Below the pieces are notes generated by a model. It saw nothing but the letters and a program-made list of their open reading frames with translations, was not told where the DNA came from and searched no databases. Position numbers and translations under genes: made by a program. Positions 18,162-48,614 of a stretch of 48,614 nucleotides of DNA are shown piece by piece (within the stretch, counting starts at the first letter, position 1; every line of letters begins with the position of its first letter). This stretch comes from Spirochaetales bacterium Spiro_02. Lineage in GTDB: Bacteria > Spirochaetota > Spirochaetia > Sphaerochaetales > Sphaerochaetaceae. Location of the stretch: NCBI GenBank assembly GCA_001604275.1, contig LVBD01000063.1, forward strand, positions 1 through 48,614, written 5' to 3'.

Positions 18162-18854
18162 ATGGAAACGGTATTGTTGGCCGCAGGACTTTCGACCAGG
18201 ATGCACGGATCGCAGAAACTGCTACTGCCATGGGGGGATGAAACGGTTGCCGCGCATTGCGTGAGACAGGCGCTGTTCGGATTGCGCGACATACTGATGG
18301 CGAGCCCTACGGCGCCGGAACAATCGGCCGGCCGCCTGATCGTAGTCACCGGTTGTGATGCAGTCCCGGTACGGAAAGCGCTGGAACCCATCGAAGGGCA
18401 ACTGGAAGCTGGTCTATTCGACGTACAAAGCGATGCGGCATTCCTCCGGCGGCCGGAACTGTTGTTCGTCCACAACCAGAGATATTGCTTCGGACAGTTT
18501 TCCTCGACACTCGCGGGGGTGGCGGCAGTCTCGCAAGGATCGCCGTTCTTCATTACGATGGGGGATCTACCGCTGATCACCGCCGCCCACTACGGCAAGC
18601 TCGTCGGACAGCTCGACGGATACGACGCAGTGCGTCCCGCCTGCGCCGGCACGCCAGGACATCCGGTGCTCCATGCCGCCCGGTTACGGGAGGAAATCCT
18701 GAAGCTCCCGGAAACTGCGACGATGCGGAGCCTTCTGGCGGTAAAAAAAACGACGGCCACCGACGACGGCGACATCGCATGGATCAGCGACATCGACACC
18801 CCGGAGGCCTATCGGTCATTGTACGTCCTTACGTTCGGGCGGCTTCCTTCGTAG
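18162..18854 (+). CDS. MobA-like nucleotidyltransferase
   Basis: This 230-residue protein has the nucleotidyltransferase fold used for cytidylylation or guanylylation of molybdopterin. The N-terminal nucleotide-binding loop [20 protein letters not shown] is clear (residues 5-24), followed by the metal-binding aspartate in [11 protein letters not shown] and a GTPGHPVL block near residue 163. This resembles MocA/NTP_transf_3 proteins that make the cytosine dinucleotide cofactor for xanthine dehydrogenase-type enzymes. No molybdenum enzyme lies next to it, so the substrate is uncertain. AAGGA lies 8 nt before the ATG. Its last 26 bp overlap the end of clpB. Confidence 0.8.
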
Positions 18855-21453
18855 TGGCGGAAGCGGGCACAGCGCCCTTATGGATCGCGATCACGTCCTC
18901 CTCTACGGATAGAACGATCACATCCCCGTCTGCGAAATCACCGTTGAGCAATTTGACAGCCAGCTGGTTCTCGATCAGATTCTGGATGGCACGCTTGATC
19001 GGCCGCGCCCCGAAATCGGGATCGAATCCCGCTTTTGCGATGAACCTCAGCACATCCTCGTTCCACGAAAGCTGGAAGCCCTTGAGCGCCAGACGTTTGG
19101 CAAGCAAGTCGAGCTGCAGCGCCACGATCTTCTTGATCGCGCTCTCATCAAGCCGATGGAATACGATGATCTCATCGATCCGGTTGATGAACTCCGGCTT
19201 GAACGAAGCGTGGATCACCGCTTCGACCGCCTGTCGGGCCACGTCGTAGTCCTTGGACATCAGCAACTGCTGGCTTCCCAAGTTGCTTGTCATGATGACG
19301 ATCGTATTGGTGAAGTCGACAACCCTGCCCTGCCCGTCGGTCAGACGACCGTCGTCAAGAACCTGCAGCAGCACGTTGAACACGTCGGGATGCGCTTTCT
19401 CGATCTCATCGAACAAAATCACCGAATACGGGCGACGTCGAACAACTTCGGTCAGCTGACCGCCTTGGTCATAGCCGACGTACCCGGGAGGCGCTCCGAT
19501 CAGACGGCTGACCGAGTGTTTTTCCATGTACTCGCTCATATCGATCCGCGTAAGGGCCTTTTCATCATCGAAGAGGAACGAAGCCAACACCTTCGCAAGC
19601 TCCGTCTTGCCTACTCCCGTCGGTCCTGCGAACAGGAACGACCCTAAAGGCCGATGCTCGTCACCGATACCCGTCTTGTTGCGCCTGATGGCGTTCGCCA
19701 CCGCCTTGATCGCTTCGTCCTGCCCGATGACACGCTGCGACAGCGTATCCTCGAGGTGGACGTACTTCTCCATCTCGCTGGCGAGCATCTTCGCCACCGG
19801 CACGCCTGTCCAGTTGCTGACGATCCTCGCCACGTCGTCGTCCGAAACTTCTTCCCGCAGCAGTTGCCGACCATCGGTCTGCACTGCTTCGAGGGCGGAG
19901 CTCTTGTCGGATATCTCCTTGGTCAGCGAGGGAATCAGCCCATGCTTGATTTCGGCGGCCTTGTTCAGGTCGCCGTTGCGTTCGGCCATCTGCTCCTCGG
20001 TCTTCAGCTGTTCAAGCCGGGCCTTCTTCTCACGGATGCTGTTGATCGCATCCCGTTCGTTGGTCCACTGCAGATGCATCGCGTCGCGCTGGGTCTGTAG
20101 TTCGGCAAGTTCTTCCTTGATCTTTTCCAGCCGCTTGAGCGAGTTCTTGTCGGTCTCGCGCCCCAACGCCTGCTGCTCGATGTTCAGCTGAAGAATCTTC
20201 CGTTCGATCTGGTCGAGTTCCACCGGCTGGCTTTCGATCTCCATCTTCAACTGGCTCGCAGCTTCGTCGATCAGGTCGATCGCCTTGTCGGGGAGGAATC
20301 GATTGGTGATGTACCGGTCGGAGAGAACCGCGGCGGCCACCAGCGCCTCGTCCTTGATCCGTACCCCGTGGTGCACTTCATACCGCTCTTTCAGTCCGCG
20401 AAGGATCGCAATGGTATCCTCAACGGAAGGTTCTTTGGTGTATACTGGCTGGAACCGCCGCTCCAGAGCCTTGTCCGTCTCAATGTACTTGCGGTACTCG
20501 TCCAGCGTCGTCGCACCGATGGCGTGCAACTCTCCGCGGGCGAGCGCAGGCTTGATCAGGTTGGAGGCATCGGTCGACCCTTCCGCCGCTCCGGCTCCGA
20601 CGATCGTATGCAGTTCATCGATGAACAGGATGATCTGGCCTTCGGACTTTACCACTTCGTTGATCACGGCCTTCAGCCGCTCCTCGAACTCACCGCGGAA
20701 TTTCGCGCCGGCGATCAAGGAACCGATATCCAGCGACAGCAACCGCTTGTCACGGAGCGATTCGGGAACGTCGCCGCTGACGATCCGCTGGGCAAGTCCT
20801 TCCACGATGGCGGTCTTGCCGACACCGGGCTCACCGATGAGCACCGGATTGTTCTTCGTCCTTCTCGACAGCACCTGCATGACACGCCGGATCTCCTCGT
20901 CACGGCCGATGACCGGATCGAGCTTGCCCTGCCTGGCCAGCGACGTCATGTCCTTGCAGTATTTTTCCAGCGACTGATATCTGCTTTCAGGATCTTCGTC
21001 GGTGATCCTCTGGTTGCCGCGGATCGACTGCAATGCGGCCATCACGTTCTCCTTGGTCACTCCGCGGTTCTTCAGCATCTCCCCTACGGGGGAATCGCCG
21101 TCCTCAAGAATCGCCAGGATCAGATGCTCGGCGCTGATATACTCGTCCTTGAACGTCCCTGCGATCTTCTCGCTGGCGTATAGTTCATTGCCCAGCCGAT
21201 TGGACAGGGAACGTTGCGAGGCACTGCCGTAGCTCTTGGGAAGCCGGTCCACCATCTGCTCCAGCTCCTGCTCAAGGGAACGGGAAGAGACCCCCAGTTT
21301 CTCGAAGAGAGGACGTACCATCCCCTCCTTCTGCTGCAGTAGCGCCAGCAGGATATGCTCGGTATCGATCACCGAGTTGTTGTGATCGTTCGCTATCGTA
21401 TCGGCGCTCTGAATCGCCTCGCGAAGCTTGATCGTCATATTCTCTACATTCAT
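18829..21453 (-). CDS. clpB: ATP-dependent chaperone ClpB
   Basis: This 874-residue AAA+ disaggregase works with DnaK to rescue aggregated proteins. It has the N-terminal Clp repeat domain, a first ATPase module with Walker [10 protein letters not shown], the long coiled-coil middle domain (about residues 400-530) that identifies ClpB, and a second ATPase with Walker [10 protein letters not shown] and the [20 protein letters not shown] region. The length is standard. The gene converges on the nucleotidyltransferase gene and overlaps it by 26 bp. No CIRCE element is obvious upstream. Confidence 0.97.
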
Positions 21454-21971: not shown

Positions 21972-21991
21972 CTATTGCGAAGATTGCGAAA
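21804..21991. repeat. GTTTA/GCGAAA motif array at the phage edge
   Basis: Within 110 bp there are eight GTTTA or TAAAC pentamers, at 21,838, 21,849, 21,863, 21,873, 21,886, 21,897, 21,928 and 21,943, several spaced by 10-11 bp. GCGAAA occurs at 21,804, 21,921, 21,964 (inside the palindrome ATTTCGCGAAAT) and 21,986. Dense repeated boxes of this kind at the outer end of a Mu-like phage may be transposase-binding sites. They could also be operators of a phage or host regulator. The function is inferred. Confidence 0.45.
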
Positions 21992-22745
21992 TCCGATTCA
22001 TGGCAGCTTCAATCCGATTTACAGCAATGCTGAAGTACTTTTCATCCTGTTCGATTCCAATGAACATCCTTCCCGTATTTATCGCTGCTACACCAGTCGT
22101 CCCTGAGCCCATGGTGAAATCCAGCACAGTATCTCCGGGATTTGTATATGTCAGGATCATGTATTCCACCAGCGCTACTGGCTTCTGTGTAGGATGATGG
22201 TGCGATACATCGCGGGCAATCTCCAGAACGGACAATGGGTACCTGCGACCATCTTCTGATCCTGTTGTCCTGTCGTCAATCGGACGATAGCATTCACTCA
22301 TTTTTCGGATTCCAGCCGTGGCTTTCTTTCCTTTATAAGGAGTACTATACCAGAATTGTGGATTATAGGTCGGCTGTTTACGATAGAATACCAGAATGTC
22401 TTCATGCGCTCGTAACGGGCGATTCTTAGCATTGAGAAAACCCGTGCTATAGTTCTTCACCCAAGCCCATGCGTACCGCAGGTTTTGAAGATTACTGTTG
22501 CCTAAGACTGTTGTAAAGGGCTGGCAAGCGGTAAAAACAAACGCTGCATTTTCTTTGCTTACCCGATATAAATTATCCCACATCTTATCCAGAGTGATCA
22601 CGGTATCCCATTTACAAGCCGTCGTACCATAAGGCGGATCTGTAAGTACCAGGTCAACTGAAGCGACAGGAAGTTTAGGAAGAACCTCCAGACAGTCTCC
22701 ACAATACAATGTGGCATTCCCGACCTTGATTCTACTACTATACAT
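21972..22745 (-). CDS. DNA methyltransferase (adenine-N6 or cytosine-N4)
   Basis: This 257-residue protein has the catalytic motif DPPY at residues 36-39 (VLTDPPYG) and the S-adenosylmethionine motif DFTMGSGTTG near residues 209-218, an order typical of beta-class amino-methyltransferases. HPTQKPVALVEYMILTYTNPGDTVLD is also characteristic (seen as HPTQKPVALVEY then TNPGDTVLD). No restriction enzyme is adjacent, so it is probably a solitary phage methylase that protects phage DNA or alters gene expression. AAAGGGG precedes the ATG. It is the outermost phage gene. Confidence 0.92.
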   Translation of the reverse strand: MYSSRIKVGNATLYCGDCLEVLPKLPVASVDLVLTDPPYGTTACKWDTVITLDKMWDNLYRVSKENAAFVFTACQPFTTVLGNSNLQNLRYAWAWVKNYSTGFLNAKNRPLRAHEDILVFYRKQPTYNPQFWYSTPYKGKKATAGIRKMSECYRPIDDRTTGSEDGRRYPLSVLEIARDVSHHHPTQKPVALVEYMILTYTNPGDTVLDFTMGSGTTGVAAINTGRMFIGIEQDEKYFSIAVNRIEAAMNRISQSSQ

Positions 22746-22832: not shown

Positions 22833-23864
22833 TCAAAGGAATTGCGAAATCAATTCTTGATGTCTTTGTTGAGCGGGAACAATGACATTGCGCTCAACAA
22901 ACCTTGTATAACCATCTTTATCAGCATGAGCCAGCAAGCCATTAACGGAACATAATTGAGCCGCGAGAAATTCAGGATCCTGCGCCCAGTCCATTATTGA
23001 TTTTATTCGCCGCCCTGCTCTTGCGAGTGTTGATTTTCTTACATATATTTTATCCGGCAATACCCTATATCCACAGAAATCTATTGCCTGAGGTTGCTCA
23101 TACGGTCGTCTAAATTCAACCACCTGGCATTTATTTCCGTTGATCGATAGTTTAAGTTTGCTTTCCGCGAAAAGTGCCAGGGTATACATCTGATCTTCAA
23201 GTCGGTCTCGGTCATTCCCGAGATAGTAGATGTCGTCCATATATCTTCCGTACTTCTTTATGCCGAGATTCATGGCAAGATGATCCACTTCATTTAGAAC
23301 AACATTCCCTGCGAACTGACTGGTCAGCGATCCGATCGGAATGCCCGGAGAATAGCTCTCGATGATAGTACGGATCAGCCACATGGACCAATCGTCAGTC
23401 ACTGTCTTGCCGATGATATCAAGAAGAACGCCGTGATCAATTGAGTGAAAATATTTACGGAAGTCTATTTTTGCAACATACCAGGTTTCTTTTCTCGGAA
23501 GATTCTGCATCGCTTTTTGGAGGTCAAGACATGCTCTCAGCATGCCTTTTCCTTCTCTGCACGCATAGCTGTGATCAATGAACTGTGAATCGAATATAGG
23601 ACCGTAAACATTGCACCATTGTTGTTGAGAAAGTCTATTGTCTATACTAGGCGCTGCTATGAGGCGTTCCTTTGGTTCATGGACAATAAACATCCGATTC
23701 GGTCCTGGATGCCATGTTTTTGTGCGAAGATTCTCCTGATGGTTCCAGAGGTTCAGTGCTAGGCTTTTCTCAAAACGTATAACCGCCTTACTCTTTGAAT
23801 GGTTTCTGCGTATCTTCTGCCATGCAATTAATTGATTGTTCCAGTCTAATACTTGATTTTTCAT
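22833..23864 (-). CDS. DGR reverse transcriptase
   Basis: This 343-residue reverse transcriptase of retroelement type has motif A KIDFRKYFHSID (132-143) and the catalytic box YMDD (208-211). The motif GIPIGSLTSQFAGN (174-187) carries the SQ pair that distinguishes DGR enzymes from the QG of group II intron and retron enzymes. The protein is short, lacks maturase and endonuclease domains, and ends soon after the thumb. It would copy the TR RNA into cDNA with errors at adenines, in complex with the Avd-like protein. The gene begins about 120 bp after the TR. No strong ribosome binding site is visible. Confidence 0.95.
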   Translation of the reverse strand: MKNQVLDWNNQLIAWQKIRRNHSKSKAVIRFEKSLALNLWNHQENLRTKTWHPGPNRMFIVHEPKERLIAAPSIDNRLSQQQWCNVYGPIFDSQFIDHSYACREGKGMLRACLDLQKAMQNLPRKETWYVAKIDFRKYFHSIDHGVLLDIIGKTVTDDWSMWLIRTIIESYSPGIPIGSLTSQFAGNVVLNEVDHLAMNLGIKKYGRYMDDIYYLGNDRDRLEDQMYTLALFAESKLKLSINGNKCQVVEFRRPYEQPQAIDFCGYRVLPDKIYVRKSTLARAGRRIKSIMDWAQDPEFLAAQLCSVNGLLAHADKDGYTRFVERNVIVPAQQRHQELISQFL

Positions 23865-23985
23865 GGTTATAAAAATGGCGGTGGGCTGAAACCTTTAAAC
23901 CGCCTGCTGCTACGTGAATTTGCACTTGCTAGGGAAACTGTCCTTTTTGCAGCCTTAGGCTCTTGACCGTCAGGATTCTGCAGAG

Positions 23986-24099
23986 AGCGCAGGGCCCGGA
24001 ACACAATGTCCATGTTCGTGTTCGACCGCGTGTTGTTGCCGTTGCGACACCCGAGGCCAGCATTCGACGTGTTGTTCGGGTTGCCACCCGCATAGGGGC
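23986..24099 (-). repeat. DGR template repeat (TR)
   Basis: These 114 bp are repeated 642 bp away at 24,628-24,741. On the minus strand TR contains 25 adenines, mostly in AAC or AAT codons when read in the frame of the target. Differences to VR are at 24,016, 24,019, 24,043, 24,062, 24,063, 24,073, 24,075, 24,076, 24,081 and 24,082. All but 24,062 are adenines on the template strand. It lies between the avd stop (12 bp upstream on this strand) and the reverse transcriptase, the classic place. An open frame running through it is not a gene. Confidence 0.96.
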
Positions 24100-24106
24100 C
24101 GGAATC

Positions 24107-24122
24107 GGGCTTAAAAAAGCCC
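24107..24122 (-). other. Small hairpin spanning avd stop codon and TR entry
   Basis: GGGCTT (24,107-24,112) can pair with AAGCCC (24,117-24,122) around a 4-nt loop. The avd stop codon (24,111-24,113) lies inside this stem, and TR starts 8 bp beyond on the minus strand. In the well-studied Bordetella phage DGR the avd end and flanking RNA are needed for cDNA priming; an equivalent role here is inference. Confidence 0.4.
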
Positions 24123-24536
24123 TGAATCATTGTTGCACGATTTCCCCTTGATACCCTTGAGAGAGGATATCCACCCTCCAATAATCCGCCCAAGCTCATC
24201 AAGCGTCTTGGCGCAGCATACCGAGCGTTCGATTGAGATAGAGTATTTAACAATCCCTCCCTTTGAAAGAAAGGAAAGGTTCGGAGCTTGATTAATCCAA
24301 AATTTGACATTTTGTAGATGGTGATCCGCGGCTTCAATCTTTCGCATCATTACAGATGATGTGTTCTGAAATTTTGCTTCATTCAAATATGTTCCAACTT
24401 CCCCGATTTCTTCACAGATTGTTTTACCAAACATAAGCCTATATGGATTAGGCATCGAGTTGTAACACAAGACTACCTCATTTACCGCTTTTGTAAGCGT
24501 CTGAAAAAGCGGATTTGAGTCCTCAAATTTTTCCAT
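24111..24536 (-). CDS. avd: DGR accessory variability determinant (Avd-like)
   Basis: This 141-residue protein is slightly longer than the typical Avd of about 125 residues. Its mostly helical pattern with four amphipathic helices fits the four-helix bundle of Avd. The conserved central part reads MPNPYRLMFGKTICEEIGEV. Avd forms a basic barrel-like pentamer that binds reverse transcriptase and the template RNA. The gene lies between VR and TR, which is diagnostic. The start has a weak TGAGG. The assignment rests mainly on context and shape. Confidence 0.85.
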   Translation of the reverse strand: MEKFEDSNPLFQTLTKAVNEVVLCYNSMPNPYRLMFGKTICEEIGEVGTYLNEAKFQNTSSVMMRKIEAADHHLQNVKFWINQAPNLSFLSKGGIVKYSISIERSVCCAKTLDELGRIIGGWISSLKGIKGKSCNNDSGLF

Positions 24537-24566
24537 TTTTAAACCTCAAAAACAAAAAATTTGCGA

Positions 24567-24591
24567 GTGCCCTCGCGGTGCGCAAGGGCAC
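24567..24591 (-). other. Hairpin just downstream of VR
   Basis: GTGCCCT (24,567-24,573) pairs with AGGGCAC (24,585-24,591); inside, GCG/CGC adds three pairs after a C-A mismatch, with a 3-nt loop. It lies about 30 bp past the target stop codon and 37 bp past the VR end. In Bordetella phage a hairpin or cruciform in this place promotes target recognition during retrohoming. On the minus strand a T-rich tract follows after 7 nt, so a terminator for the target gene is the alternative. Confidence 0.6.
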
Positions 24592-24619
24592 AAAGAATCA
24601 ATTCTCAGAAACCCCTGGA

Positions 24620-25813
24620 CTATTTTAAGCGCAGGGCCCGGAACACAATGTCCATGTCCGCGTTCGACCGCGTGTTGTTGCCGTCGCGACACCCGAGGCC
24701 AGCCCTCGACGTGTAGCGCGGGGCGCCACCCGCATAGGGGCACCTCTCGCCAAGATTGCGCATATAAGCGGTTCCGGCAGGAGCGATCGTGCAGGGAGCA
24801 AGCCCTAGCTCATACGCCATAGGAGGTACCGTCACCCCGGACCGCATGCCAAGCGATGCGAACGTGATTACACCATACGGAGACTCGACAGTCTGCTGGT
24901 TGTCGATGGATGCTGCGATTTCGAATGGCGCGGTTCCGGATGAGGGGGCCGCCGTGATGTAGTCGTAGCCCAGCGTCCCTGACGTGCCTAGATTCTGCCA
25001 AGTTCCATCCTGTGCAAGCTCCTTGAAAAGCGTCGATGAGGCCGTCAGATCGCGCCCGGCGACCGCGGCGTTGTTGTCGGGAATGATCCGCCATTTTCCG
25101 TCGACATACTTCAGATCAGCGTATCGCTCGAGACCGTTGCCAACCATATCGGCCGGTTCGAAGATGGATCCCAGCAGATGCCAAGCTTCTGGACCTGTAC
25201 CAGTCCTGGTCAAATACGCATTGTTATCCGATATTGTAGCGACCTCCCCGTATTCTGCGGCTGCGTGCGATTTCCCATATTGGCTATTGCCTCGTGGCTG
25301 GAACGCCAGTCTCATCGACAGGAGCATCAGGTACGACCAGACCGCATTTGTCGACAAGGCGAAGCGATTGCCCATTGCGACACACAACGAAATCATTGTG
25401 TCCAAAGTCAGGGAGTAGGAAGGAATCAATCCATAGAGAGATACGGGAGTGTTTGCCCCGGCAGGAGTCCTGCCTCCCAGATATTTCGAGACCTGGAATT
25501 CTCTCGGCGCCCCGTCTACATAGAATGCAGGATGCAACGCACGTCCGTCCGGAGTGAACAACGTCCCACCATTAGACAGGTAGTCTAATCGTGCCTGCTG
25601 GTTAATCGGATAGTTGACCATGACGCTCGGACGTCCGAGGTCGTCGATTACGACTTCATTTTTTCCTTGAGACAGGTTGAGGATCGCATCTCCGATATTG
25701 ACCGCATCGTAGTAGTCACCATCCTCAAGTACCAGGCCGCTGCCCTTGACGGCCAGCGCGGTCAGTGCTTTTTCCAGGCGGATCATCTCCGCCACAATTT
25801 GATCATACTTCAT
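24620..25813 (-). CDS. DGR target protein, tail-tip receptor binder
   Basis: This 397-residue protein starts MKYDQIVAEMIRLEKAL; a longer frame to 25,843 overlaps the previous gene more. The N-terminal 60 residues are helical and probably attach to the tail. The middle and C-terminal part fits a C-type lectin or formylglycine-generating-enzyme-like fold, as in other DGR targets: WSYLMLLSMRLAFQPRGNSQ, then RCPYAGGAPRYTSRAGLGCR at the end. Codons 358-395 lie in VR. Residues altered relative to TR are 364, 366, 367, 370, 377, 385 and 386. The fold assignment is by analogy; the DGR target status is directly visible. Confidence 0.93.
   Translation of the reverse strand: MKYDQIVAEMIRLEKALTALAVKGSGLVLEDGDYYDAVNIGDAILNLSQGKNEVVIDDLGRPSVMVNYPINQQARLDYLSNGGTLFTPDGRALHPAFYVDGAPREFQVSKYLGGRTPAGANTPVSLYGLIPSYSLTLDTMISLCVAMGNRFALSTNAVWSYLMLLSMRLAFQPRGNSQYGKSHAAAEYGEVATISDNNAYLTRTGTGPEAWHLLGSIFEPADMVGNGLERYADLKYVDGKWRIIPDNNAAVAGRDLTASSTLFKELAQDGTWQNLGTSGTLGYDYITAAPSSGTAPFEIAASIDNQQTVESPYGVITFASLGMRSGVTVPPMAYELGLAPCTIAPAGTAYMRNLGERCPYAGGAPRYTSRAGLGCRDGNNTRSNADMDIVFRALRLK
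24628..24741 (-). repeat. DGR variable repeat (VR)
   Basis: This 114-bp near copy of TR (offset 642 bp) forms the 3' end of the target gene, stopping 6 bp before its stop codon. It is 104/114 identical to TR. Nine of the 10 differences replace a TR adenine (with G, C or T), and one replaces a T by G in the same codon as another change. Six of nine asparagine codons of TR became other residues (Ala, Arg, Tyr, Arg, Asp, Asp), and a Thr became Ala. The invariant 3' part, identical to TR over about 30 bp (24,628-24,657), can act as the mutagenic homing site. Confidence 0.96.
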
Positions 25814-26419: not shown

Positions 26420-27181
26420 TTATACCCCCTCGTATTGAGTGATTGTTTTTATAATGTGGCCGTTTACTTGTGCACGACCGACTACATACTGTACTCCGTC
26501 GATACTGATGCCGCCGACCGCAGTCCCTGCTGCTCCTACCGCAACCGATGCGGCGGCTTGTGCGTCAAGCTTTGCTGTGTTGGCAGATGACGCAGAGCCG
26601 GCTGCACCTGTCGCACTTGAAATAGCGGCATCCTTGCTCGTTGACGCTGATGTAGCAGAGTTCGCCGATGAGATAGCGCTTGCAGCAGCCGCTTCTTCAG
26701 ATATCAGGGCCGCTGCAGCCGAATCGGACGCATTGCTCTCTGCGGTTTCCGCATCATCCTTGAGCTCTTCGAAAAGCTCCAGGTACTGATCCAGCACAGT
26801 CGGCGTAGTCGGTATAATCGCATCCGGTGTAAGGTTCTCTTCTACATAGATCGTCGCAGGAGCTGAAACCCATTTTGAATCTCCCGAAGTCGCATAGAGC
26901 TGAATCTCCATCCGGCCGCTCACCTGCGTCGCAGTCACCCCGGGTGTCCAATCAAGATAAATCAGTTCTCCGGAAAAAGTTTTTGAAAGCAGAACCGACT
27001 CCCCCTCCCCGTTTTTGTTGCGGAATTGCAGGTACCACGTCCACCCCGACAGATCGATCTCCTCCCGGTATGTCTTCTGAACGACGAACCTGATCGTGTC
27101 AGCTCCAGTCTGTCCTCCGATCACCAGCCTTTTGACCGCGTCGACCGCGATCGTCTTATCTCGAATATGCACCTGTATCAT
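26420..27181 (-). CDS. BppU-like baseplate/fibre protein, copy 2
   Basis: This 253-residue protein starts at the ATG at 27,181, where AGGAGGG lies 5 nt upstream; the longer open frame is an artefact. The first about 110 residues resemble the BppU N-terminal domain that anchors fibres to phage tails (TIRFVVQKTYREEIDLSGWT, LQFRNKNGEGESVLLSK). The middle is an alanine/serine-rich coiled coil (about residues 135-215) like a fibre shaft. The N-terminal domain is clearly related to that of the gene at 27,454-28,752. Its start overlaps the stop of the preceding small gene (ATGA). Confidence 0.8.
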   Translation of the reverse strand: MIQVHIRDKTIAVDAVKRLVIGGQTGADTIRFVVQKTYREEIDLSGWTWYLQFRNKNGEGESVLLSKTFSGELIYLDWTPGVTATQVSGRMEIQLYATSGDSKWVSAPATIYVEENLTPDAIIPTTPTVLDQYLELFEELKDDAETAESNASDSAAAALISEEAAAASAISSANSATSASTSKDAAISSATGAAGSASSANTAKLDAQAAASVAVGAAGTAVGGISIDGVQYVVGRAQVNGHIIKTITQYEGV

Positions 27182-27444
27182 AATGCCCTCCTGAGCAGAT
27201 CTATTAATAGGACGATGATTGCTCCTGCGCCCACCCCTGCAAAGTCTGCTAGAATATCCCACCAGTCCCATTTGTTCCCGGCAGCCCGGCTGTCGCCAAA
27301 CTCCTTGCCCAGCCCCAATCCGATCGCGAACGAAGCCCCTGCGACAAGAGAGAAAAGTCCAATCAGCAGCGTGCAACCGAAGCAGATCAAGAAATGCTGG
27401 AGCTTATCCGAGAGACCTGTGAACCATTTAATGATAGATGTCAT
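27178..27444 (-). CDS. Small membrane protein with GKE-GDS-WDW motif
   Basis: This 88-residue protein has two hydrophobic segments: about residues 17-45 (LICFGCTLLIGLFSLVAGAS) and the C-terminal DFAGVGAGAIIVLLIDLL. Between them the motif LGKEFGDSRAAGNKWDWWDI resembles YfiM/DUF2279-type or VanZ-like small membrane proteins; I cannot name a function. A role in lysis or superinfection is possible. It is coupled to the BppU-like gene by an ATGA overlap. A broken relative lies at 28,749-28,896. Confidence 0.75.
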   Translation of the reverse strand: MTSIIKWFTGLSDKLQHFLICFGCTLLIGLFSLVAGASFAIGLGLGKEFGDSRAAGNKWDWWDILADFAGVGAGAIIVLLIDLLRRAL

Positions 27445-27453
27445 GACGCCTCC

Positions 27454-28752
27454 TTATTGCACAACCTTGAGCGTGCCGTTGTCGACCCATACCCGTCCCT
27501 GCTCAAGCCCGAGAGAGGATATCGGTAGATCGACAAGCATCTTGTTTCCGCCGGTATATACGGTGACTTCCGGATCTTCTGACAAGACGCCGGAGCTTGT
27601 TATCCCGCTCGAGCTGCTCCATTTTCGTTCGATGGTCGCGACAAGGTTAAGTCCTGAATCGTACAAGTAAATGTAGGTCTCATTACCGCCGAATCCCCAG
27701 CTGCTCCACTCGTAGTAATACGTCTTAAGATAGACATAGGAACTATAGCCGGCGATCGAGCAAGGAACGATCTTGCCGTCAAGCGACACATTGACGCTGC
27801 GCACATGATCTCTGATCGTCTTGGCCTGATCATTGTCGCTTGTCGCTGTAACAGGGTATCCGGTCGAAGCCTCGGGCTCGATGCGCAGGGAGCCAAAATC
27901 AGCATAACCGTCCTGGATCGTAACGTTGCGCAACAACGCCCCGACAGCCCGAATCATCCCATCCATGGCTGACAGCTTGTATCCTCCAAGCGGCTTACCA
28001 TTTGAATCTTCGGAATACCCCCCCTCGATGATGCCGGAGCCGGTCATGACCAGATGCATCGCAGCCAGCAGGTCGGTAAAGATCGCAGCGGCATAGATCG
28101 TGTCGCCGGTCTGCTGGGCGATCGCCATCGCATCAGACAAGCCGGCCATGACTACATACGACGCGGTAGTCTCCGCCCAGGAATCGTTGATCGCGGAATA
28201 CTTGTAGTAATGATATTGAGTCCGGCTCTCGGTAGTAGCTCCGGTGTAGAGGTAATAGTCCTTGTCTATCGGATCAGCGGGATCTGTCGTTGATGTCCCC
28301 CTGTATGCCCCCGAGTCAATGCCGCTCATCCGGACAGGCGTGGTCCAGTCTCCGACCTGATCACCTGTAGAAGAGAACATGGCTGTACTACCCCATACTG
28401 GATTCGTGCCAGCCGGAATCTGTGTCGACCATCTATTAGTTTCTGATCCAGAAGCTCTCAAGCCAAAGACTTGGATTTGACAGCGTCCGTTGACTTGAGT
28501 GAATGCACCTGTAGGTTGCCAGTCCAGATTCAACACATTACCCGACACACTTTTGGTAAGGAGGATTGGTTCTCCTTGTCCGTTCCTGTTCTTGTATTGC
28601 AAATAGAAAGTAAACTGGCTTAGGTCAGTTTCATCGGCATACACCTTATCAAGGGTGAAGCGTACTGTTTCTGCCTTATGTTCAAGTCCTACCACCAAGT
28701 TCGCCAATTCCGAAATTCGTATCTCTTTGTCTACTATTGGTACTATTTTCAT
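27454..28752 (-). CDS. BppU-like baseplate/fibre protein, copy 1
   Basis: This 432-residue protein starts at MKIVPIVDKEIRISELANLV (ATG at 28,752). Residues 1-110 form a BppU-like anchor (TVRFTLDKVYADETDLSQFT, LQYKNRNGQGEPILLTKSVS), related to copy 2. The rest has Gly/Ser/Thr-rich beta-structure suggestive of a fibre or receptor-binding module, with no coiled coil. It overlaps the remnant gene upstream by ATGA. Confidence 0.8.
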   Translation of the reverse strand: MKIVPIVDKEIRISELANLVVGLEHKAETVRFTLDKVYADETDLSQFTFYLQYKNRNGQGEPILLTKSVSGNVLNLDWQPTGAFTQVNGRCQIQVFGLRASGSETNRWSTQIPAGTNPVWGSTAMFSSTGDQVGDWTTPVRMSGIDSGAYRGTSTTDPADPIDKDYYLYTGATTESRTQYHYYKYSAINDSWAETTASYVVMAGLSDAMAIAQQTGDTIYAAAIFTDLLAAMHLVMTGSGIIEGGYSEDSNGKPLGGYKLSAMDGMIRAVGALLRNVTIQDGYADFGSLRIEPEASTGYPVTATSDNDQAKTIRDHVRSVNVSLDGKIVPCSIAGYSSYVYLKTYYYEWSSWGFGGNETYIYLYDSGLNLVATIERKWSSSSGITSSGVLSEDPEVTVYTGGNKMLVDLPISSLGLEQGRVWVDNGTLKVVQ

Positions 28753-28896
28753 TGTCCCATCCTCAACATGAATCTCACAACCATTGCGCAAGAAATGCCG
28801 ATTGCTATCCCAATGGTATCAGCCCCGACATCACTCCAATCCCATCTATTTCCGACAGCTTGTGAATCACCGTATTCCTTCCCAAAAAACCTTCAT
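28749..28896 (-). pseudogene. Frameshifted small membrane protein gene
   Basis: An ATG at 28,896 with a perfect AAGGAGG site starts MKVF, then meets a stop after nine codons. One base less in the T6 run (A6 on the plus strand, 28,884-28,889) would give 48 residues, including GKEYGDSQAVGNRWDWSDVG and a C-terminal hydrophobic helix. That is clearly related to the intact protein at 27,178-27,444, minus its N-terminal helix. So it is a decayed or frameshifted paralogue, unless sequence error or +1 slippage explains it. Its stop overlaps the next start (ATGA), showing the cassette layout. Confidence 0.75.
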
Positions 28897-46113: not shown

Positions 46114-46634
46114 GGTTTTACCTCCAGCTTCATGATGGCCGCCTGCAGTTTCTCAAGAAGATCCGGATAATCTACGGCAAGCTGTGCGGCCAACTCGTCA
46201 TAGACTTTTGCCTTCGCACGCTCAACCCCGTTCTGAAAGTTCAGCCGATGCTTGGACAGCTCCACCTGGTTGTGGGAGACCTTTGCCATTGCATCGAAGA
46301 AATCCTTGGGCTTTGCGAAGTCGATATCCTCCATGTCCAGGATTTTCTCATAGAACATGTTGACGAGGATGCTGTTGCCTGCTTCAACAAGATCGGTGTT
46401 CGTGCCGTCCTTGACGCTTTCAAGTACGGTCTTGGCACTTTCGGCCGCGACCTTGTATTTCTCTGCTTTCCTGCGACTAGCCACATAACTTCTCCGAACC
46501 GCTTCCCTGGACAAATCGGCACCCTGATCCTTTAGTCGTTCGGAGATCTCCGCATGGGACAGGAGATCGCGATCGTGCAAGTCGACTATCTTTCCGGCCA
46601 CCCCCAATTCTTCAGCCTTGCTCCGTCTTCCCAT
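46110..46634 (-). CDS. Terminase small subunit (DUF3486/Mu gp27-like)
   Basis: This 174-residue protein starts MGRRSKAEELGVAGKIVDLH, which is the hallmark N-terminus of DUF3486 proteins from Mu-like phages. A helix-turn-helix region (LSHAEISERLKDQGADLSRE) follows, then a long helical part. It recognises phage DNA for packaging. The gene directly precedes the large subunit. Confidence 0.88.
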   Translation of the reverse strand: MGRRSKAEELGVAGKIVDLHDRDLLSHAEISERLKDQGADLSREAVRRSYVASRRKAEKYKVAAESAKTVLESVKDGTNTDLVEAGNSILVNMFYEKILDMEDIDFAKPKDFFDAMAKVSHNQVELSKHRLNFQNGVERAKAKVYDELAAQLAVDYPDLLEKLQAAIMKLEVKP

Positions 46635-46636
46635 GA

Positions 46637-46945
46637 CTACCTCCGAACATGGATGCCGTCGTCAGTGATGGACTGGTCGTACAAATCTTGCCCTTTCGCA
46701 GTGAGCCTGTAGTTGTGGATTCGTTCGAAGGCGCTGCCGAACGGAGATTTTAACCTGGTCTCTTCGAGATATCCTTTGTCGACAAGGTACTGTAAGGCCT
46801 TGAGGATATCATCGGTCTCCCAGTATTCGAAGAAAGTCTCGTATACGGATTCCCTGCTGATCGGATGTGGATAGATCGTGCACAGGAACTGCAACAAGTT
46901 GCCCCGCAGTTCTTTCTTTTTTTCGGTCTGCAATTCCATGTTCAA
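46637..46945 (-). CDS. Small phage protein with winged-helix appearance (Mu gp26 position)
   Basis: This 102-residue protein reads LQFLCTIYPHPISRESVYET, then ILKALQYLVDKGYLEETRLK and IHNYRLTAKGQDLYDQ. The pattern of helices followed by a beta wing resembles a winged helix. It lies at the position of the Mu-like gene before the small terminase. The function is unknown. Confidence 0.75.
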   Translation of the reverse strand: MNMELQTEKKKELRGNLLQFLCTIYPHPISRESVYETFFEYWETDDILKALQYLVDKGYLEETRLKSPFGSAFERIHNYRLTAKGQDLYDQSITDDGIHVRR

Positions 46946-47253
46946 TCCCTACTCCCCTTGGCGACAAGCTCCGTGATATGCAGGAGCTGCTTGTTCACAT
47001 TTCCAAGTTCCGTTCTCCAGCCGCCGAACTGTTGGAACAGATCTTCCTTCGTGACGTAATGCTGCTGCAGGTAGCCGAGCTTCTCATCCTGCTCCTTATC
47101 CTTCTCCGCCTGCTTCTCTGCCATCCCGTCGATACGCCGTGCGATTCCGCCCATTTCCTTGCTTTGGTTCTTCATTTGCATGAGTACCAGGACGATGAGC
47201 AGGATGATCACCGCCGTCGGTCCCAGGCTATTGACTATGCTGAGAAATTCCAT
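46942..47253 (-). CDS. Small membrane-anchored phage protein (DUF2730/Mu gp25-like)
   Basis: This protein has about 103 residues from the ATG at 47,253 (MEFLSIVNSLGPTAVIILLI), which has AAGGAG 6 nt upstream. One N-terminal membrane helix (residues 10-28) is followed by a coiled coil with EKQAEKDKEQDEKLGYLQQH. Mu-like phages have a DUF2730 protein in this place. It overlaps the following gene by 4 bp. Confidence 0.72.
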   Translation of the reverse strand: MEFLSIVNSLGPTAVIILLIVLVLMQMKNQSKEMGGIARRIDGMAEKQAEKDKEQDEKLGYLQQHYVTKEDLFQQFGGWRTELGNVNKQLLHITELVAKGSRD

Positions 47254-47290
47254 GTCCACTCCTTACTGCATTGTGGCATGCCTTACCCGA

Positions 47291-47321
47291 TGAAAAATGG
47301 AGCCCCTGATTGATAGGGGCT
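47291..47321 (-). terminator. Terminator between lysis genes and packaging genes
   Basis: AGCCCCT (47,301-47,307) pairs with AGGGGCT (47,315-47,321), with a 7-nt loop. On the minus strand CCATTTTTCA follows. It probably attenuates transcription leaving the holin/lysis-type genes. Confidence 0.7.
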
Positions 47322-47330
47322 TGTAAATAA

Positions 47331-47825
47331 TCATGTTCCTGAACTAATCGCCGACCACACCAGGCTCCCCAGTGCTATCGTCAGAGCCGCTCCCACCCCT
47401 ATCTTTAACCATGTGTTCTGGGTTTGTAGGCTTCGGAGTTGTCGCGTTGCGTCGGCGCTGAAGTTCAGAAACGATTGCTGAGCTGTCAATGACGAGTTCC
47501 TTGATTGTTCGGCCAAGTCTTTCGCCTCGGTCGAGAGCTGCTGTGCTTCGCTCGATAGCGTCAATGCCAAGTCTGCCTGCTTCCGAGCTTCTTCCAGATT
47601 TGTCTGCGCTGTCTGCAGCTCGCTCTGCTGCGTCTCCTGCAAGATCGCCAGCTCCTGCAAGTTGTCCGACAACATCATCAACAGCTGATCCTCCGATAGT
47701 TCCTGCAGATCCACGCCGGCGCCAGCCAATGGCAAGGCCGATGAAAAGGCCAGCACCGACAGCAAGAGGAACAGCAATATAGAATATGACCTTCTTGAGG
47801 TTTGTCGTGAATGCAACGCCCACAT
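47331..47825 (-). CDS. Lysis-region protein with signal peptide and C-terminal membrane helix
   Basis: This 164-residue protein starts at the ATG at 47,825, 5 nt after AAGGAG. A basic N-terminus is followed by a hydrophobic signal (SILLFLLLSVLAFSSALPLA), a long Gln/Glu/Ala-rich coiled coil (about residues 45-130), and a C-terminal membrane helix (GVGAALTIALGSLVWSAI). The layout suggests a spanin-like or tail-lysis function, but there is no lipobox. Most of it overlaps another long frame on the same strand (see the overlapping gene entry). Confidence 0.65.
   Translation of the reverse strand: MWALHSRQTSRRSYSILLFLLLSVLAFSSALPLAGAGVDLQELSEDQLLMMLSDNLQELAILQETQQSELQTAQTNLEEARKQADLALTLSSEAQQLSTEAKDLAEQSRNSSLTAQQSFLNFSADATRQLRSLQTQNTWLKIGVGAALTIALGSLVWSAISSGT
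47344..47823 (-). CDS. Overlapping-frame protein with N-terminal membrane anchor
   Basis: A second open frame on the same strand could start at a GTG at about 47,823, using the same AAGGAG. It reads VGVAFTTNLKKVIFYIAVPL, a membrane helix ending in GWRRR, then a soluble Ala/Asp/Arg-rich part (DLAGDAAERAADSADKSGRS...) ending GEPGVVGD. The topology is that of an inner-membrane spanin. Only one of the two frames may be real, or both, as in Rz/Rz1. Without codon statistics I cannot decide. Confidence 0.4.
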   Translation of the reverse strand: MGVAFTTNLKKVIFYIAVPLAVGAGLFIGLAIGWRRRGSAGTIGGSAVDDVVGQLAGAGDLAGDAAERAADSADKSGRSSEAGRLGIDAIERSTAALDRGERLGRTIKELVIDSSAIVSELQRRRNATTPKPTNPEHMVKDRGGSGSDDSTGEPGVVGD

Positions 47826-47827
47826 GC

Positions 47828-48103
47828 CTACTCCTTCGCCGACTTCGCTGTATCGTAGATACCCATTGCGCTGAATGCGGCAACGGCACCATGGCACAGT
47901 CCGGTGATGACCACTGCATCAAGGACCATACGCCACCCAGTGAGGGTGGTTATGACGAATCCGTAGATGGTCGCAATGCTGACAGCAGTGACCAAAAGGA
48001 CCAAGGGGACGCGTTTTCCATCACCAAGGTATTGCTTGGCGATGCGACCGACACCGATCAACATCGGCACGAGAATAAGAAGTTCTGGCTTGAGATAATT
48101 CAT
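47828..48103 (-). CDS. Putative phage holin
   Basis: This 91-residue protein starts at the ATG at 48,103 (AGGAGGG 5 nt before). Three hydrophobic segments are visible (ELLILVPMLIGVGRIAK, VPLVLLVTAVSIATIYGFVI, DAVVITGLCHGAVAAFSAM). The pattern with GDGKRVPL between helices resembles small phage holins of the Phage_holin_4/8 type. It immediately precedes the lysis-type protein and is the first minus-strand phage gene in the window. Confidence 0.75.
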   Translation of the reverse strand: MNYLKPELLILVPMLIGVGRIAKQYLGDGKRVPLVLLVTAVSIATIYGFVITTLTGWRMVLDAVVITGLCHGAVAAFSAMGIYDTAKSAKE

Positions 48104-48221
48104 TTGCACCCTCCTATATGGGATAGTAATAGGGTAACAAATGAAGGAAAGGGGAAATCGGAACAAACTTCGTGCAAAAATAGAAATGGAATGGTAAGCT
48201 GGAAAAAGGAGGTGAGATACA
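48104..48221. promoter_or_regulatory. Divergent intergenic region between holin and small plus-strand gene
   Basis: These 118 bp separate the minus-strand holin from a plus-strand small gene, so outward promoters for both directions are expected. AT content is high. I cannot single out a convincing -35/-10 pair. Confidence 0.35.
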
Positions 48222-48350
48222 ATGGATATAAATATTGTCTTAGTGATAATTCAAATTCTCGAAATAGTCATTATCCCAATTTTTCTTTTGATCATAAACA
48301 ACAAAAACGAAATACAACTCACTCTATTTCCAAGTAAGGGAGTATTGTAA
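48222..48350 (+). CDS. Small hydrophobic phage protein (42 residues)
   Basis: The ATG at 48,222 has an excellent AAGGAGGTGA site 7 nt upstream. The protein reads MDINIVLVIIQILEIVIIPI then LLIINNKNEIQ and stops at 48,350. One membrane helix with an N-out or N-in anchor is likely. It is transcribed opposite to the late genes. Function unknown; it is too short to assign. Confidence 0.5.
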   Translation: MDINIVLVIIQILEIVIIPIFLLIINNKNEIQLTLFPSKGVL

Positions 48351-48360
48351 TCATCGAAAG

Positions 48361-48614
48361 ATGCACAGCAAAAACACAAATAGCTGGAAGCCTCTTCAAC
48401 AGTCTATGTACGAGAAAACCCAAGAACTTAGAATGAAGATTTTTTCCAAACAGGTTCTTCTTTGTAGTGATCTTGCAGTGATTTTTCTTAAATTGCAAAT
48501 TGCACTAGATGATGCAATTTTTGATGGCGATATCAATAGCAATAAGGGTTTTCTGAATCTTCCGGCTGAAAAGCACCGGTGCTCCGCGCAGGAGCACCAG
48601 TGGCAATTCGAAGA
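48361..48614 (+). CDS. Open frame running off the window (weak)
   Basis: From the ATG at 48,361 a frame of 84 codons stays open to the edge (MHSKNTNSWKPLQQSMYEKT...). It follows the small hydrophobic gene by 10 bp. Only a weak GAAAG precedes it. A strong hairpin at 48,574-48,602 lies inside, which argues somewhat against coding. No family recognised. Confidence 0.3.
   Translation, partial: MHSKNTNSWKPLQQSMYEKTQELRMKIFSKQVLLCSDLAVIFLKLQIALDDAIFDGDINSNKGFLNLPAEKHRCSAQEHQWQFE
48574..48602. other. Strong hairpin near the window edge
   Basis: GGTGCTCC (48,578-48,585) pairs with GGAGCACC (48,591-48,598) around a 5-nt loop; CAC/GTG extends the stem across a C-A mismatch. Read on the minus strand it is followed by CTTTTC, so it may terminate transcription that enters from the right. 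Alternatively it could be an operator. Confidence 0.5.

Follow-up and report, generated by a model that had tools for sequence, protein, structure and literature searches.

A complete BPP-1-type diversity-generating retroelement in a prophage of the Sphaerochaetaceae

The reverse transcriptases (RTs) of diversity-generating retroelements (DGRs) carry SQ in motif 4 together with a YxDD motif, whereas those of group II introns carry PQG. The accessory protein Avd is present in most phage DGRs, the targets are built on a ligand-binding scaffold of C-type lectin or Ig fold, and a hallmark of these elements is an IMH at the 3' end of VR that differs from the IMH* in TR. In Bordetella phage BPP-1, for example, the cassette runs from mtd with VR, through bbp7 (Avd), TR and a spacer, to brt, all on one strand and with TR and VR of 134 bp. 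A further DGR lies in a Thermus aquaticus prophage together with avd, and its variable protein, TaqVP (PDB 5vf4), has a C-type lectin fold of the formylglycine-generating-enzyme type (PMC6328139). Among spirochaetes, the DGR of Treponema denticola (TvpA) has an adenine-biased VR and remote targets, and is not tied to known phage genes (PMC4891356).

The window described here (the whole stretch of DNA that was analysed, 48,614 nt, which is an entire contig) holds a cassette whose four parts all lie on the minus strand and run, 5' to 3', as target gene with VR, Avd gene, TR and RT, which is also the order in BPP-1. A preliminary description made from the sequence alone had proposed a complete DGR in canonical order on one strand at 22833-25813; both the layout and the coordinates proved exact, the span reaching from the RT stop to the target ATG, and the RT, Avd and target reading frames are all open and intact. 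Taking together the RT motif, the RT tree, the adenine bias between TR and VR, the Avd fold and the target homology, we consider it about 96% probable that this locus is a complete BPP-1-type DGR carried by a Sphaerochaetaceae prophage. It resembles BPP-1 in the size of its repeats (114 bp), in the Avd fold and in an inverted repeat after VR, but differs in its target (Mtd there, TaqVP-like here), in its spirochaete host, in the loop and spacing of the hairpin and in its RT, which branches elsewhere in the DGR tree. The cassette is plainly a new instance of a familiar type of system, not a novel type, and leaves the understanding of how DGRs work unchanged. Its interest lies in being a clean and compact DGR of a Sphaerochaetaceae phage, in having relatives whose VRs have already diverged at adenines only, and in pointing to what is likely the receptor-binding gene of a phage of spirochaetes. 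It also offers a useful comparison to the T. denticola DGR, because the latter is not tied to phage genes (PMC4891356), whereas the window cassette sits in a prophage and has a single target. As the provirus is already in IMG/VR (IMGVR_UViG_2751185602_000001; 29,784 bp), the cassette may already be present in a large DGR catalogue; that of Roux et al. 2021 draws on a scan of IMG public genomes (PMC8144416). In the literature collection searched, no paper mentioned both DGR and Sphaerochaeta.

The surroundings of the cassette bear out its placement in a spirochaete prophage. Left of about 21.9 kb, the window carries host genes (ribosomal S7, RpoC, RpoB, L10, L11 and a phosphorylase), with a ClpB-like ATPase at 18829-21453 that was recognised by eye from its sequence. 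To the right of the cassette, on the minus strand, lie genes for the small and large terminase, portal, head morphogenesis, neck, major and minor tail and a J-like central fibre, the last followed by a fibre-like protein (26420-27376) and then by the DGR; these siphophage-like head and tail genes look intact. The genes at 26420-27376 and 27454-28791 (minus strand) are neighbours whose products have a common N-terminal domain (phrog_25888), as if they were duplicated fibre-attachment proteins. At the edge of the prophage, a DNA N6/N4 methyltransferase gene (21972-22745, minus strand) separates the DGR from the host's ClpB-like gene. The contig breaks off in or close to the packaging module and so contains an incomplete prophage; the terminal stretch (46634-48614) is inside the prophage and adjoins the small terminase. 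Neither an integrase nor a lysis gene was recognised in the 48,614-nt window, and the integrase genes of the genome are on other contigs, not linked to this prophage.

TR (23986-24099, minus strand) and VR (24628-24741, minus strand) were found in a repeat search as direct repeats of 114 nt each, 91% identical and spaced by 642, with VR forming the last codons of the target, in frame at the 3' end of this protein-coding gene. On recount, the figures of the preliminary description were reproduced exactly, the 10 mismatches falling at 9 of 25 TR adenines and at 1 of 89 other positions (Fisher p = 2.7e-6); when 10 mismatches were placed at random, none of 200,000 placements put at least nine at adenines. 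The sole non-adenine mismatch, T to G at 24704, adjoins a changed adenine. Eight of the nine adenine changes are at codon positions 1 or 2 of AAC/AAT and the ninth is in ACG. Adenine occurs in 16 TR codons, nine of them AAC/AAT and none mutable to a stop at its adenines, and about 5e14 peptides are possible from adenine mutagenesis of TR. The 2.61-Mb genome assembly contains exactly two TR/VR copies, which are this pair, and scanning the entire window for repeat pairs with an adenine bias brought up no second one.

The cassette was almost certainly functional in the recent past, and we infer that it is active at present. It could instead be a relic, once active but since fallen silent in a prophage that is defective or truncated, which we regard as rather unlikely. 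The end of the contig inside the prophage and the lack of a recognised integrase or lysis gene in the window would fit such decay, as would a VR that differs from TR at only nine adenines, below the median of 14 in the 132 other loci with adenine-biased pairs described below. However, the RT (with its catalytic YMDD), Avd and target frames are open, the head-to-tail genes look intact, and both the hairpin and the 3' match of VR to TR are retained. When IMG/VR was scanned for variants of the VR belonging to this TR, the same provirus was the sole match, with an identical VR; this identity could also be read as loss of activity, but the two database copies apparently derive from the same genome or isolate and are therefore silent on activity.

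The target gene (24620-25813, minus strand; ATG at 25813) encodes a TaqVP-like variable protein of 397 aa that matches phrog_2889, a family with no assigned function (E 2.6e-56), while a Pfam search of the protein returned 0 domains. Its only PDB relative is 5vf4 (E 1.5e-26; alignment profile E 3e-40), so that TaqVP is its closest solved homologue, from a DGR that is likewise in a prophage with avd (PMC6328139) but in a host of a different phylum. The C-terminus of the target is predicted to be C-type-lectin-like by homology to TaqVP alone; a structure prediction of the target from 4 sequences reached a pLDDT of 28. We consider the target a probable receptor-binding protein. Its homologues in isolated phages are annotated as antireceptor or Mtd-like and adjoin baseplate genes and Avd, and in the window the target follows, on one strand, the J-like central tail fibre and the tail-fibre-like protein at 26420-27376. 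Both observations speak against the unlikely alternative that the prophage makes the target as a lectin-like protein for the host cell surface and not for the virion, a reading that would suit the unassigned function of phrog_2889 and the fact that a methyltransferase, not a phage tail gene, comes after the cassette. Among viral sequences, the nearest target is found on two contigs (L237 and L238) that are identical over 7162 bp and thus without VR variation.

The RT (22833-23864, minus strand; 343 aa) carries the motifs PIGSLTSQ and YMDD, in agreement with its earlier designation as an SQ-type RT, and matches the profiles RVT_1 (E 3e-17) and phrog_1423 reverse transcriptase (E 6.6e-90). Its nearest PDB sequence is 8ub7_A, the RT of the BPP-1 DGR ribonucleoprotein (E = 1e-44), and it is 34% identical to the BPP-1 RT over 91%. 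In a maximum likelihood tree of 43 RTs, the 12 RTs of group II introns, all taken from this bacterial family, were split with 100/100 support from 31 DGR-like RTs (among them BPP-1, BalMu-1, Lagaffe, ACA1 and that of the window), and the window RT fell on the DGR side. There, the window RT joins L005, from a Sphaerochaetaceae genome (96/93), and then L006 and L150 (100/100). Identification as a group II intron RT/maturase was rejected on a score of 115 bits against a cut-off of 300, on the presence of SQ and not PQG, and on the tree position; a retron was likewise rejected, as the model match was weak and the tree places the RT with DGR RTs. The host genome belongs to the same family as JAFGUP010000094.1, a Sphaerochaetaceae genome, and across this family a DGR-like RT at E <= 1e-20 occurs in 13 of 139 genomes.

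Three relatives carry the same cassette, namely L070 (Sphaerochaetaceae MAG JAFGUP010000094.1), L071 (Spirochaetales MAG JAQYHB010000052.1) and L150 (IMGVR_UViG_3300021387_005797), with RTs 43-57%, targets 50-69% and Avd proteins 39-68% identical to those of the window, but with their own TR sequences and their own VR states. At adenines shared between the TRs, the window VR differs from that of L070 at 16 of 24 positions, from that of L071 at 10 of 23 and from that of L150 at 10 of 20, whereas at shared non-adenines there were no differences at all (0/62, 0/58 and 0/52, respectively). At the peptide level, the window and L070, its nearest relative, are identical at 31 of 37 residues in TR and at 20 of 37 in VR. 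This comparison between elements is independent of repeat-scan scoring, and its pattern is the one predicted by mutagenic homing, not by ordinary divergence; the proposal that the asymmetry records past adenine mutagenesis is thus upheld, and the VRs of related prophages vary at adenines only, as had been predicted. The alternative that a sequence was simply duplicated and diverged normally, next to an RT that belongs to an unrelated group II intron or retron, is refuted by the RT tree and the between-relative comparison and has a negligible probability, for although repeats of such length do arise by duplication and the RT weakly matches group II intron and retron models, the adenine asymmetry (p = 2.7e-6), the absence of changes at shared non-adenines, an RT score far under the group II cut-off and the separation from the family's group II RTs all contradict it. 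In all 12 of 12 related or same-family loci, TR/VR mismatches are nearly all at template adenines. A further 164 loci, mostly fetched by RT similarity, included 132 with an adenine-biased pair at p < 1e-3, and 1837 of the 1898 mismatches in those pairs are at adenines, a proportion that is not unbiased because the scan rewards adenine mismatches. One genome (G036) holds two adenine-biased TR/VR pairs on two contigs, L031 (G036:C5) and L042 (G036:C4), and an RT at E <= 1e-20 on only one of them.

Between VR and TR lies a gene (24111-24536, minus strand; 141 aa) for which matches to sequence models of Avd, the accessory variability determinant, were weak (NCBIfam NF033474, E 1.8e-8 and 35 of 80 bits, below the curated cut-off; Pfam bAvd, 0.0017). 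Its predicted structure is a four-helix bundle (pLDDT 81), and the best Foldseek matches of this model are the Avd chains of 8ub7 and 4dwl, with TM-scores by target of 0.76-0.83. In VIA-align the model reached Z 14.7 with 8ub7_E and Z 14.3 with 4dwl_A, at 1.8 A, against 11-12 for unrelated bundles; S23-family proteins, which share the Avd fold, score as high or higher. It is the match of the predicted fold to BPP-1 Avd together with the position of the gene that settles its identity as Avd, as the preliminary description had suggested.

The sites around the repeats also invite comparison with BPP-1. The last 30 bases at the 3' end of VR (24628-24657, minus strand) are identical to TR and include the G/C-rich run CCGGGCCCTGCGC, with TR/VR divergence beginning right after; judged from the alignment, this stretch is probably the IMH region, and it contains 0 IMH/IMH* differences inside the repeat. 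An inverted repeat (24567-24591, minus strand) with an 11-bp stem and a 3-nt loop, able to form a hairpin or cruciform, lies 36 nt after VR and is probably a DGR target-site structure, or else a transcription terminator; among 400 random 90-nt pieces drawn from this region, one scored as high. In L070 the stem, also of 11 bp, has altered letters (one C-G to T-A), while L071 and L150 form another stem at almost the same distance after VR. The hairpin is followed by runs of T in the window, L070 and L071, those of L150 being interrupted, so that termination as its sole role is possible but less likely. Guo et al. found that the downstream structure is required in BPP-1, with the stem letters free, and described hairpins with GRNA tetraloops at a distance of 4-34 (PMC3240598); in contrast, the loops of the window and its relatives are not GRNA, and the 36 nt in the window is just beyond that range.

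The spacer (Sp) between TR and RT (23865-23985, minus strand; 121 nt) is a probable structural part of the DGR RNA and holds GCAAGTGCAAATT, which is unchanged in the spacers of the window, L070 (1597) and L071 (4940), with the relatives' RTs 43-57% identical to that of the window. GCAAGTGCAAATT is a candidate conserved RNA element, and its conservation matches what the spacer portion of a DGR RNA should show. Folding TR and spacer together from the single sequence did not set them apart from shuffled versions (z 0.28). The four RTs noted above share one long, fully supported branch, and we tentatively raise the possibility, which we regard as rather unlikely, of a small, separate line of DGRs in spirochaete siphophages, marked by a conserved spacer-RNA element of its own and a non-GRNA target hairpin, so that its RNA and its target recognition may differ from those of BPP-1.

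By analogy with BPP-1, TR and the downstream spacer would be transcribed, the RT with Avd would copy the TR RNA into cDNA with errors at template adenines, and this cDNA would replace VR at the 3' end of the target gene, with homing guided by the identical 3' end of TR and VR and probably also by the hairpin after VR. Through the nine Asn (AAC/AAT) codons, the C-type-lectin-like C-terminus would vary without a stop codon ever arising, and the variable surface would most likely bind the host receptor.

TR itself lies within a long open frame in the window (23867-24337, minus strand). At another locus (L033; 3664-4965, minus strand) the TR frame continues into the RT uninterrupted by a stop, giving 433 aa, and automatic gene calls will therefore fuse TR to the RT.
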